Part shown: positions 1,701 through 31,031 of the stretch, in pieces
How the letters are laid out: the number at the start of each line of letters is the position of its first letter
Numbering within the stretch: the stretch's first letter is position 1
From: Methanobacteriota archaeon
Lineage (GTDB): Archaea > Halobacteriota > Syntropharchaeia > JAUWIL01
Length of the DNA stretch: 33,182 nt
Reading direction: 5' to 3'
NCBI GenBank assembly: GCA_030605385.1
Contig: JAUWIL010000004.1
Span: 1 to 33,182, forward strand
The notes under the pieces: model-generated
The model's database searches: none
Seen by the model: the letters and a program-made list of their open reading frames with translations, nothing else
Told to the model about the DNA's origin: nothing
Translations under genes and position numbers: made by a program

Positions 1701-1853
1701 ACCATACGGTTATCGATAGTTATGCAAATCATCGGGCATGTCTGAAAACCTTTGGTTTTCATACGGTTACAGTGCCCCGCTCTGTAAACATGTCTGAAAA
1801 CCTTTGGTTTTTCATACGGTTGCAAAACTTTATTTTGCAAACATGCAAGATGG
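1701..1853 (+). repeat. Hairpin array H2 (type 1 linkers)
   Basis: catgtcTGAAAACC-ttt-GGTTTTCAtacggttACAGtGC-ccc-GCTCTGTaaacatgtcTGAAAACC-ttt-GGTTTTtCAtacggttGCAAAAc..gTTTTGCaaacatg; degenerate unit at the 5' edge. Confidence 0.88.
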
Positions 1854-3627: not shown

Positions 3628-3856
3628 CATGTATGAAATGCGAAGCATGTCTAAAAAGCAACGCTTTTTAGACGGTTGCAAAATCTTTGATTTTGCAAAC
3701 ATGTCTGAAAAACCTACGGTTTTTCATACGGTTGTAGAACGTAGTTCTACAAACATGTCTAAAAGTGGAACTTTTAGACGGTTATGGAACTTCGTTCCAT
3801 AAACATGTATAAAATCTCCTGATTTTATACGGTTATGGAGCTGTGCTCCATAAACA
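3628..3856 (+). repeat. Hairpin array H3 (type 1), between aroC start and aroA stop
   Basis: Units include TAAAAAGC-aac-GCTTTTTA, TTGCAAAATC-ttt-GATTTTGCAA, TGAAAAACC-tac-GGTTTTTCA, TGTAGAAC-gta-GTTCTACA, CTAAAAGT-gga-ACTTTTAG, TATGGAAC-ttc-GTTCCATA, GTATAAAATC-tcct-GATTTTATAC, TATGGAGC-tgt-GCTCCATA alternating with ACATGT and ACGGTT linkers. Confidence 0.93.
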
Positions 3857-5282: not shown

Positions 5283-5350
5283 CAAACATGTTTGCGGAAT
5301 CCGAGATTCCGCAACCGTATGAAAACCAAAGGTTTTCATACATGTTTGCA
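5283..5350 (-). repeat. Hairpin array H4 (type 1, reverse orientation; 2 hairpins)
   Basis: aaacatgTTTGCGGAATC-cga-GATTCCGCAAccgtaTGAAAACC-aaa-GGTTTTCAtacatgtttg. Confidence 0.88.
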
Positions 5351-5896: not shown

Positions 5897-6215
5897 GCAT
5901 GTCTGAAAAAGCTTGCTTTTTCATACGGTTGCGGAACTGCGTTCCGCAAACATGTATTGAAGCTCTGCTTCAATACGGTTACAGAGCCCTGCTCTGTAAA
6001 CATGTATAAAACACTGTGTGTTTTATACGGTTACAGAATCTTCGATTCTGTAAACATGTCCGAAAACCTTTGGTTTTCGTACTGTTGTGAAATCTTCGAT
6101 TTCACAAACATGTCTGGAAGCTCCGCTTCCATACGGTTGCGGAATCTCCGATTCCGCAAACATGTTTAAAAATCTTTGATTTTTAAACTGTTGCAGAACT
6201 ACGTTCTGCAAACAT
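5897..6215 (+). repeat. Hairpin array H5 (type 1), 12 consecutive hairpins filling an intergenic spacer
   Basis: Alternating slots: GAAAAAGC/tt, TTGCGGAAC/tgc, GTATTGAAGC/tct, TTACAGAGC/cct, GTATAAAACAC/tgt, TTACAGAATC/ttc, CGAAAACC/ttt, TTGTGAAATC/ttc, TGGAAGC/tcc, TTGCGGAATC/tcc, TTTAAAAATC/ttt, TTGCAGAAC/tac, with ACATGT / ACGGTT(ACTGTT) linkers. Confidence 0.96.
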
Positions 6216-8935: not shown

Positions 8936-8945
8936 ACTTTATTGG

Positions 8946-9104
8946 TGTTTGCAGAATCTCAGATTCCGCAACCGCATAAAACACGCAGTGTTTTAGGCAT
9001 GTCTTGCAAAAGCAAAGCTTTTGCGGAACAGGCGGAGTTTTACTCCGCCATGTTTGCGGAACGCAGTTCCGCAACCATATGGAAGCTGAGCTTCCATACA
9101 TGTA
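8946..9104 (-). repeat. Hairpin array H6 (type 1 with embedded type 2 module, reverse orientation)
   Basis: AGAATC-tca-GATTCcgcaaccgcATAAAACAC-gca-GTGTTTTAggcatgtctTGCAAAAGC-aaa-GCTTTTGCggaacaGGCGGAGT-ttt-ACTCCGCCatgtTTGCGGAAC-gca-GTTCCGCAAccataTGGAAGC-tga-GCTTCCAtacatgt. Confidence 0.93.
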
Positions 9105-9129
9105 ATGTTTTGGTGGTATGCTTTTATAG

Positions 9130-9245
9130 GGCCGGGACCGAGAGTCGAACCCGGGTCGTGGGATGTCTGCAAGCTTTCAGTCAGCACTTTTGCAACTGAA
9201 ATGCTTGCCACAGTCCCATAGGATAACCGCTACCCTACCCCGGCC
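9130..9245 (-). tRNA. tRNA-His (GTG) with intron at 37/38
   Basis: Minus strand G-1 GCCGGGG ... TCCCGGC C73 (His identity pair), anticodon stem TGGGA/TCCCA, loop CTGTGG|A; intron has BHB pairing CTGT/GCAG and AAGC/GCTT. Confidence 0.9.
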
Positions 9246-9390: not shown

Positions 9391-9446
9391 TACTTGACGA
9401 AATCTTTGATTTTGACTGTTTTGCAAAAGCAAAGCTTTTGCAGAAT
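9391..9446 (+). repeat. Hairpin array H7 (degenerate type 2)
   Basis: acttgaCGAAATC-ttt-GATTTTGactgttTTGCAAAAGC-aaa-GCTTTTGCAgaa. Confidence 0.75.
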
Positions 9447-12472: not shown

Positions 12473-12840
12473 TGTTTGCTGAACAGCAGTTCAGCAACCG
12501 TATGAAAAGGCGCTACCTTTTCAGACATGTTTGCAAAACGTAGTTTTGCAACCGCATAAAACACGCAGTGTTTTAGGCATGTTTGAAAAACGCAGTTTTT
12601 CAACCGTATGAAATGCTTCGCATTTCAGACATGTCTTGCAAAAGCAAAGCTTTTGCGGGACTTGACGAAGGCAGAGCCTTCGGTTGTCTCGCGAACATTT
12701 AGTTCGCAAGACAGGCGGAGTTTTACTCCGCCATGTTTGCGGAACGAAGTTCCGCAACTGTATAAAAAGCGTTGCTTTTTATACCTGTTTGCAAAATCGA
12801 AGATTTTGCAACCGTATAAAACACACAGTGTTTTATACGT
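12473..12840 (-). repeat. Hairpin array H8 (type 1 with embedded type 2 block, reverse orientation), about 14 hairpins
   Basis: Loops include gta, gca, gca, ttc, aaa, aga, attta, ttt, gaa, gtt, gaa, aca; linkers AACCGTAT and ACATGT with internal CTTGACG / TTGTCTCGC / CAAGACAGG. Confidence 0.95.
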
Positions 12841-12988
12841 GCATCCGTTTTAACGCCAACATTTTCCGTAACATACAATTGCTTAACAGCAGCACACAAT
12901 GCATCCGAAAGCTTTTTTATACAATGCTCTTTAAATGGCAGGTTGTATCCAAATCCAAAATAGCATTCTGCAGCTCGGATGAGGTTTT

Positions 12989-13402
12989 TTGACTGTGAGC
13001 CTGATAGATGACCACCTGCCCAAAAAAGAACTCCTGAACAAGCTTGAAGAGATGTTTATATTTCTCCAGCCCAAGCGTGTAGAGCTACTTCTGAGACCAG
13101 CCAGCAAAAGTCTTGACCCGCTTGATGATATTGGTTTGCCTGAGGGGGCCAAGCTGTTCTTCTTACACATTGCGGTCGTAACCGACCAGTGGGAGGGTAA
13201 TGTAGATGGTGATTCGGTGGAGGAGGCTATAGACATGCTGAACCGCTGGGTACTCGTAAACACAAAGAGCGACATATTAGTAGGCTCGCTCAACTTCCTT
13301 AGCGATGATGAGGATAGCCTTCCAGATGCCCTTGAGCGCTATGGCATATATCTTGATGGTCTGGAATACGATCATTTCCTGGAGGTTTATGAATACGAGT
13401 GA
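12989..13402 (+). CDS. Conserved hypothetical protein
   Basis: 137 aa ORF, coding-like composition. Confidence 0.65.
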   Translation: MTVSLIDDHLPKKELLNKLEEMFIFLQPKRVELLLRPASKSLDPLDDIGLPEGAKLFFLHIAVVTDQWEGNVDGDSVEEAIDMLNRWVLVNTKSDILVGSLNFLSDDEDSLPDALERYGIYLDGLEYDHFLEVYEYE

Positions 13403-20530: not shown

Positions 20531-20610
20531 TCTCGCGAAAGATTTACTTTCGCAAGACTCGTGGAGCTTTGCTCCACGCTGTCTTGCAGAATCTCCGATT
20601 CCGCAGATAT
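20531..20610 (+). repeat. Hairpin array H9 (type 2)
   Basis: tcGCGAAAG-attta-CTTTCGCaagactcGTGGAGC-ttt-GCTCCACgctgtctTGCAGAATC-tcc-GATTCcGCA. Confidence 0.88.
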
Positions 20611-21440: not shown

Positions 21441-21597
21441 GCACTTGTCGAATGCGTAGCATTCGCCTGTCTTGCGGACTGCGTCCGCTAGACTTACCGA
21501 AAGCAAAGCTTTCGGTTGCCTCGCGAAATCTCCGATTTCGCAAGACTTGTTAAAATCATAGATTTTATCTGTCTCGCGGCCTGCGTCCGCAAGATGT
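21441..21597 (+). repeat. Hairpin array H10 (type 2), 6 hairpins
   Basis: cacttgtCGAATGC-gta-GCATTCGcctgtctTGCGGAC-tgc-GTCCGCtagacttaCCGAAAGC-aaa-GCTTTCGGttgcctCGCGAAATC-tcc-GATTTCGCaagacttgtTAAAATC-ata-GATTTTAtctgtctcGCGGcC-tgc-GtCCGCaag. Confidence 0.93.
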
Positions 21598-21822: not shown

Positions 21823-22191
21823 CCCGCCTTAACTCAGCCTGGTAGAGTGCGCGGCTGTAGTAAGTTCAGCGCCGGTGAGATAGATGTGTTCGCCTGCGCT
21901 ATTTACCGCACCTATCAAGTGCCTTTACATTCGCAAAATGTAATGTGGCGGCTACTGCCCGCCTTGCCTGCGGAACCGCATTCGCAAAACTTGGCGAAAG
22001 CGTAGCCTTCACATGTCTTGCGAAATCTCTGATTTCGCGAGACTCGTGGAACTTTGCTCCACGCTGTCTCGCGGAACTGCGTTCCGCAAAATCTTGCGAG
22101 TGTCTTGCATTCGCGAGGATTCGTGAATGCTTCGCATTAACAAAACTAGCCAGATACCGCGCTTCCCCCCGTACGAATACGGGAGGCGGGA
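21823..22191 (+). tRNA. tRNA-Tyr (GTA) interrupted by a ~295-nt intron (approx. 21861-22155)
   Basis: Acceptor CCCGCCT (21823-21829)/AGGCGGG (22184-22190) pairs perfectly with C1-G72 and A73; D-stem ACTC/GAGT; anticodon stem CGCGG (21850-21854)/CCGCG (22157-22161); loop CTGTAG|A. T-arm is atypical (CCCGTACGAATACGGG). Confidence 0.78.
21920..22150 (+). repeat. Hairpin array H11 (type 2) inside the tRNA-Tyr intron
   Basis: ctTGCGAAATC-tct-GATTTCGCgagactcGTGGAaC-ttt-GCTCCACgctgtctCGCGGAAC-tgc-GTTCCGCaaaatcttgcgag...GTGAATGC-ttc-GCATTaAC. Confidence 0.9.
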
Positions 22192-30284: not shown

Positions 30285-30501
30285 GCGCCGCGTAGTCGAT
30301 TCTGCGAGTTCTATCGGTCCTCAATAGGCAAGATATGGGTTTTCTGTTCCTGCAGCGAAATGCGCTCCAATTCCTCCCAAATACCGGCATTGTATCAGAA
30401 AGTAGCAGCGCTAAAAACAAAGACATGATGGGGGGGGCCACCAAAAGCAGAATGTTGATTCTCAGCCATTCGACAGATAGTTTCCTGCTCGTTGTGAAGA
30501 A

Positions 30502-30651
30502 CCACTGGTCAGTAGACCAGTGGCATGTCTGAAAACCTTTGGTTTTCAGACGGTTGCGGAACTTCGTTCCGCAAACATGTATAAAACACTGCGTGTTTTA
30601 TACGGTTGCAAAATCTTTGATTTTGCAAACACCAGTCAATAGAACTGGTGG
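30502..30651 (+). repeat. Hairpin array H12 (type 1) bordered by two CCAGT/ACTGG hairpins
   Basis: CCACTGGTC-agta-GACCAGTGG catgtCTGAAAACC-ttt-GGTTTTCAGacggTTGCGGAAC-ttc-GTTCCGCAAacatGTATAAAACAC-tgc-GTGTTTTATACggTTGCAAAATC-ttt-GATTTTGCAAa CACCAGT-caataga-ACTGGTG. Confidence 0.95.
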
Positions 30652-30754
30652 AATGTCGGTTTCAATGCTGTTACAACCCATCCCAAAACCTCATTGTCCG
30701 ATATCATAACCTTATAAATATGAAAGCATTCCTCATTACTAACTGAATGTGCAA

Positions 30755-30897: not shown

Positions 30898-31031
30898 CTT
30901 GCAAGACGTGTCTGAAAGCGCTTTGCGTTTCAGAGATGCTTTCATACAGTTACAGAGCCCTGCTCTGTAAACATGTCTAAAACGCTTTGCGTTTTATACG
31001 GTTACAGAATCTCCGATTCTGTAAACATGTG
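30898..31031 (+). repeat. Hairpin array H13 (type 1), just 3' of tRNA-Arg
   Basis: TTACAGAGC-cct-GCTCTGTAAacatgtcTAAAACGC-ttt-GCGTTTTAtacggTTACAGAATC-tcc-GATTCTGTAAacatgt plus a degenerate first unit. Confidence 0.9.

Follow-up and report, generated by a model that had tools for sequence, protein, structure and literature searches.

The archaeal chromosome analysed here carries hundreds of short double-hairpin units of two families, F1 and F2. The units are probably non-autonomous mobile elements that insert whole at TG and form arrays growing in whole units. We suggest that an F1 or F2 unit of ~50-54 nt would go in whole between T and G, which is equivalent to TG on both sides. Each unit edge would then present T|G as a fresh target, and repeated insertion together with recombination between units would generate head-to-tail arrays. 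Such arrays would gain or lose whole units only. The reaction would be carried out by an enzyme encoded elsewhere that acts on target DNA in double-stranded form and uses a 2-bp core. Copying within a hairpin (quasi-palindrome correction), alternating with rounds of mosaic exchange, might preserve the complementarity of the arms. Intra-hairpin copying has been proposed to maintain other perfect palindromes (PMC6649704).

The window is a stretch of 33,182 nt and lies in contig 18 of a 1.87 Mb archaeal assembly. All evidence on F1 and F2 comes from this one fragmented MAG, which is 85% complete and short-read-like. The host DNA is an archaeal chromosome and not mitochondrial, with ribosomal protein ORFs, tRNAs and PolD present. 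F1 units consist of hairpin A, hairpin B and AT in strict order and span 50-54 nt (~52). Their frame reads GTTT-stem-loop-stem-AACC, then GTNT-stem-loop-stem-GAC, then AT, and adjacent F1 units meet in the junction ...GACATGTTTG.... F2 units share the two-hairpin plan but differ in frame (TCTYGC...GCRAGACA, a second hairpin and AAG). Covariance models produced 202 matches for F1 and 100 for F2 in this genome. Stretches around model and BLAST matches (89 stretches totalling 380 kb read for F1) contained 110 F1 arrays of 1 to 7 units each, and these copy numbers are lower bounds. The arrays encompass 285 A and 268 B hairpins with 256 gapless A-B contacts, i.e., complete A+B units, and the spacer AT is found at 162 of 166 tight B-to-A junctions. 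Arrays often lie at contig ends, and identical tandem units were possibly collapsed in the assembly.

Empty and filled copies of repeat M

Many single F1 units are flanked by GTTCTATTGACTGGT and GGTTAGGACTGGT, which are both parts of the 111-nt repeat M. An empty copy of M (G000:C139:716-826) is 100% identical to the sequence deduced from the filled copies. The site T32|G33 is occupied by one F1 unit in L068, L076 and L102, by two units in L059 and L092, and by at least three units in L167, L176 and L183. A second site, T80|G81, contains one unit in L063, L076, L085, L089 and L166. The flanks of filled copies are unchanged and no base is lost or gained beside the unit. Units are hence present or absent at otherwise identical, paralogous sites within one genome. 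The comparison of empty and filled copies provides our strongest evidence and identifies the two-hairpin pair as the inserting unit. Filled copies of M may themselves have multiplied as composite elements though, and independent insertions into M may then be few. The window itself contains an M copy with two F1 units (30493-30662, minus strand; units at 30525-30576 and 30577-30630) that lacks the 48 nt between the two insertion sites. The copy at L101, with one unit, likewise lacks these 48 nt. Recombination between a unit at the first site and one at the second would produce such losses. An earlier note on this DNA had proposed that material is gained or lost in pairs of hairpins. This is borne out by M copies that differ by exactly one A+B+AT unit, and by the A-B-AT phase kept in all arrays.

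M is a second dispersed palindromic repeat with more than 20 copies, and it apparently was itself built by nested insertions. The full form has 111 nt and the minimal form 43 nt (AAACCGACATTCCACCAGTTCTATTGACCAGTGGTTCTTCACA). Further copies are found at L067, L175, L181, L182 and L184.

Ordinary tandem repeats expanding by slippage or unequal crossing-over, and dispersed by segmental duplication rather than transposition, are a quite unlikely explanation. Unequal exchange would equally yield perfect phase and unit-sized indels. Multi-unit blocks common to several loci also fit such a process, as does one array with near-identical neighbouring units (L118). Single units, however, are found in otherwise unrelated sites having only TG in common, inside an otherwise intact repeat M and inside genes. 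Neighbouring units furthermore share stems less than expected, which is the opposite of slippage. A common A stem is found in 7 of 140 neighbouring pairs compared to 12.4 expected, and a common B stem in 2 compared to 11.5 expected. Collapse of identical units in the assembly could contribute to this dissimilarity, and we do not use it as proof for this reason.

Arrays H6 and H8 and their unit structure

Arrays H6 (8946-9104) and H8 (12473-12840), both on the plus strand, were proposed in the earlier note to be alignable copies with unit-sized indels. A global alignment confirms that they align with such indels, with 125 of 132 aligned bases identical and internal gaps of 52 nt and 51 nt. Reading both arrays also recovered the three strings quoted as common to them, in identical order. 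Both gaps fit the borders of units, and their placement is ambiguous by a few bases because the unit borders are identical. The modules had been read as a single kind, but two families are interleaved in these arrays. H6 is composed of a first F1 unit at 8947-9000 (hairpin A 8947-8973, hairpin B 8974-8998, AT), an F2-type unit at 9001-9051 and a second F1 unit at 9052-9101 (A 9052-9076, B 9077-9099, AT). The F2-type unit has two hairpins in 51 nt including AT and lies between the F1 units at TG borders. F2 units in both H6 and H8 have TG on their borders, as F1 units do.

H8 has five F1 units, located at 12474-12528, 12529-12580, 12581-12632, 12735-12786 and 12787-12840. Hairpin B of the second unit is identical to hairpin B of the first H6 unit. 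The third unit corresponds to the first extra block of H8. This block was correctly recognized as a two-hairpin unit, but it is one F1 unit of 52 nt at 12581-12632 (equivalently 12579-12630), exactly filling the alignment gap, and not 51 nt at 12584-12634. Two F2 units occupy 12633-12734 (102 nt, 2 x 51) where H6 has its single F2 unit, and a match to the R2 model covers 12661-12711. The second extra block, of 51 nt at about 12660-12710, lies within this pair, but it is of family F2 and thus differs from the first block. Compared to H6, H8 has one further F1 unit at the left end and one further at the right end. The hairpins that complete the outermost units of the shared tract are not the same in the two arrays (A of the first unit and B of the last).

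Direct copying between H6 and H8, two loci 3.6 kb apart, is unsupported in the form in which it was proposed, since equally good matches to H6 or H8 exist on other contigs. The best genomic match of H6 is on contig C103, with identical F1-F2-F1 order and no gap. The double F2 unit of H8 has an almost identical counterpart on contig C73. These matches suggest that H6 and H8 are two members of a genome-wide pool and not demonstrably copies of each other. The hairpin pair stands as the mobile unit, but not as the sole thing copied. Linkage of neighbouring hairpins is as strong across unit borders (z 5.4) as within units (z 3.4-4.3 at equal sample size). Linkage between A and B as a proof that only the pair is copied was rejected on these grounds. 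Longer segments of several lengths are therefore shared genome-wide, and homologous segment exchange accounts for much of the shuffling. In L077, L090 and L107, F2-type hairpin pairs sit exactly between A and B of an F1 unit, as a nested insertion at the hairpin border.

A relaxed F1 unit pattern has 8 matches in the window compared to 0.00 expected in shuffles. The window further contains arrays of two F1 units (1738-1842, minus strand) and six F1 units, all different (5899-6213, minus strand), a single unit (5290-5343, plus strand), and one unit with an additional A hairpin (30948-31026, minus strand; unit at 30973-31026). Four F1 units lie between aroC-like and aroA-like ORFs (3647-3855, minus strand). 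F2-type hairpins lie at 20531-20607 and F2 units at 21990-22091, both on the minus strand. An F2 array at 21444-21594, also on the minus strand, contributed its units at 21494-21546 and 21546-21594 to the F2 model. A solitary hairpin at 9417-9446 on the plus strand is probably a decayed unit. ORFs extend across hairpin arrays at 1316-1840, 8942-9199, 12608-12853 and 12684-12992. These ORFs arise from the palindromic sequence and do not merit annotation as genes. A tRNA gene at 9130-9244 on the minus strand, probably tRNA-His(GTG), has an insertion of ~46 nt in the anticodon loop. The gene was detected by the Rfam tRNA model and missed by ARAGORN.

Stem pairing, target site and candidate enzymes

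Stems vary among units but remain paired. Across 23 aligned F1 units, 96% of pairing cells are paired, and double changes are found at 13 of 20 stem pairs, with 81 double-changed cells compared to 23 in shuffles. Perfect stems are drawn from a small repertoire (22 A and 20 B), and loops are variable. We counted mismatches in hairpins anchored on the frame only, with no pairing required. The 244 A hairpins include 2219 Watson-Crick pairs, 18 G.T, 20 A.C and 11 other pairs, and the 221 B hairpins include 1690 Watson-Crick pairs, 10 G.T, 11 A.C and 6 others. Together, 28 G·T face 31 A·C, and there is no wobble bias. The equal counts indicate that pairing is kept at the DNA level and not in one RNA strand. 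Regular, mostly intergenic hairpins with strong covariation could also be functional RNA structures such as terminators, attenuators or mRNA stability elements. This is highly improbable given that neither strand is favoured, that orientation and position of arrays relative to genes are near background, that no Rfam family is found at threshold (gathering score) and that arrays also occur within coding sequence. Loop inversion within hairpins, which would signal hairpin flipping, was not significant. Among 38 imperfect A hairpins, 12 have chimeric arms, with the left arm of one stem type and the right arm of another, compared to 1.4-3.8 expected. The excess is suggestive only, because the maximum of a transitions-only null is also 12.

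The target site was analysed outside M from 72 unique left and 48 unique right flanks, excluding decayed ends. T is found at -1 in 70 of 72 and G at +1 in 40 of 48, with preferences for A at -2, G at -3 and pyrimidines at +2 and +3. Outer preferences are symmetric, with T at -8 in 44 of 72 (p 2e-9) and A at +8 in 29 of 48 (p 1e-6). The overall pattern outside M is T(-8)…GAT|G…A(+8), written as T-N4-GAT|GYT-N4-A. Both T(-8) and A(+8) are already present at the first site of empty M. With G as its first base and AT at its end, a unit would recreate T|G on both sides upon insertion, so that arrays could grow at their edges. The dyad-like preference suggests a dimeric enzyme acting on double-stranded DNA.

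No element-encoded protein and no reverse transcriptase (RVT_1) were found in the 85%-complete assembly. The lack of RVT_1 there and of a wobble bias in the stems speaks against an RNA-mediated retroelement. There was also no match to the Y1 transposase (PF01797, Y1_Tnp), compared to matches in 5 of 14 controls, and at 85% completeness this absence is not final. The absence of a match nonetheless speaks against movement as single-stranded DNA by a REP-associated (Y1, HUH) or other IS200/IS605-type enzyme, which we consider rather improbable. REPINs and BIMEs with their RAYT transposases (PMC3116915, PMC3733652) do resemble F1 and F2 as high-copy, non-autonomous extragenic hairpins of similar size, in interspersed mosaic clusters and with near-absent target duplication. 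Units of F1 and F2 are though side-by-side hairpins with variable stems and a TG target, rather than one conserved, tagged REP repeated in inverse orientation. Hairpins A and B of F1 differ, orientation is constant throughout, and the F1 frame contains no GTAG. F1 and F2 hence lack two features of REPINs, a Y1 transposase match in the 85%-complete assembly and an inverted REP pair with a GTAG-type tag. The symmetry of the target at -8/+8 is furthermore unlike single-strand guide recognition. As to the terminal inverted repeats that MITEs of the DDE type have in common with an autonomous transposon, the two ends of F1 (GTTT...ACAT) do not mirror one another.

A large serine recombinase as the mobilising enzyme is an unlikely variant of insertion at TG by a double-strand enzyme. 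The only PF00239 match in the genome is a Resolvase+Recombinase gene on contig C54. At this locus (L231:1459-3415, G000:C54:10940-13021), two HNH-Recombinase fusion genes come after the serine recombinase, and then a third, truncated copy. The truncated copy abuts a six-unit F1 array starting at C54:13075. Serine integrases recombine at a central dinucleotide in 2-fold-symmetric sites (PMC3783163), and an arrangement of TG-element-TG would need such central-dinucleotide recombination at symmetric sites. The TG core with T(-8)/A(+8) would correspond to a 2-bp core with symmetric flanks. Arrays occur about every 15 kb though, so adjacency to one of them is not improbable. Relatives without F1 also have related short serine recombinases, and a 50-bp double-stranded circle is physically awkward. 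The HNH-Recombinase gene shows no association with hairpin-rich genomes. The serine recombinase on C54 is hence a weak candidate for the enzyme of F1 and F2.

Arrays in genes, known hairpin elements and relatives

Of the 88 arrays for which 300 nt are available to the left and right, six are embedded in a reading frame that is open in both flanks. All six genic arrays have a length that is a multiple of three and contain no stop codons. The array at L110 is also in frame. Interrupted genes include the PolD small subunit, a polyprenyl-phosphate translocase, a B12 radical SAM protein, a family-15 glycosidase and TrpC. The trpC gene (L076:5232-6341, G000:C51:13031-14137) is interrupted by four double-hairpin units, which insert 210 nt in frame and add 70 residues. 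The protein has 369 aa compared to 253-290 in most relatives, which do not have the 70 residues. The insert is placed between the AEIK..SPS motif, with the active-site SPS, and the next helix. Outside the insert, the flanks align to relatives and solved structures at the expected spacing. Rickettsia palindromic elements are similarly palindromic selfish DNA found in frame in protein-coding genes (PMC10969869). Those elements are ~150 bp and, as far as this review says, do not form whole-unit tandem arrays, compared to inserts of 51-210 nt here.

Mobile hairpins have so far been known mainly from fungal and sponge mitochondria, where mobility was inferred and the mechanism is an old puzzle. Double-hairpin elements (DHE) are known from the mitochondria of Allomyces and Schizosaccharomyces, according to PMC10085805 and Paquin et al. 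2000 as cited there. Like F1 and F2, DHE have two adjacent hairpins and are short, dispersed, mostly intergenic, without coding capacity and inferred to be mobile. No flanking duplication was reported for the DHE of Allomyces (PMC2800124). F1 matches the structural class of DHE in having two adjacent hairpins as one repeated unit, but not the mitochondrial location. F1 and F2 differ further by their archaeal chromosomal location and a copy number in the hundreds, and by their tandem arrays, co-varying stems, TG target and visible empty sites; we claim no sequence relation. GC clusters of yeast mitochondria (PMC4478555) are also short palindromes in tandem arrays with a 2-nt flanking target repeat (AG there, TG here). 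Their units merge and shuffle, and loops are more variable than stems. GC clusters are GC-rich and mitochondrial though, whereas each F1 or F2 unit combines two different hairpins whose stems come in many versions. Repetitive hairpin-forming elements of sponge mitochondria (PMC2800124) include tandem double and multiple hairpins, but these are mitochondrial and without evidence of empty sites.

No paper on these archaeal elements was found in our searches of open-access full text. Tentatively, the units could represent an undescribed class of archaeal chromosomal mobile DNA. This possible class would comprise 50-nt double hairpins whose stems are rewritten again and again into perfect palindromes, and a dimeric double-strand recombinase (possibly the serine recombinase with HNH-Recombinase partners) would insert them at TG. 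It would form tandem mosaics, spread in frame through genes and have independent analogues in other Halobacteriota. A prokaryote that has hundreds of units, with naturally occurring sites before and after insertion, a legible target consensus and arrays in frame within genes, makes several questions directly testable, including the insertion mechanism, the maintenance of palindromes and how enzymes such as TrpC tolerate 17-70 additional residues. The units would also illustrate how selfish DNA without genes can fill a genome, and they caution against spurious ORFs called over arrays.

Models of F1 and F2 yielded essentially no matches among 58 relatives of the class, and no match was found in phages, plasmids and viral contigs. 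A pattern scan of the genome collection recovered a single F1 sequence outside this genome, on contig 149 of Methanophagales SB_Co_68 (JAPWVK010000149.1, L134:15207-18294). The contig matches G000:C19 at 100% identity for 2.8 kb, up to a tRNA gene, and is unrelated beyond it. We rejected it as an independent occurrence of F1, since an identity to C19 ending at a tRNA gene points to a probably chimeric contig. In the genomes inspected closely, weak F1-model matches in other Halobacteriota represent separate hairpin mosaics with 3-nt loops. The mosaics of genomes G171 (L222-L228), G090 and G098 (L217-L221) have stems of 8-10 bp, 3-nt loops and regular 6-nt gaps. In G171, the arrangement GTGT-hairpin-TACGTA-hairpin-ACAC recurs at several loci.
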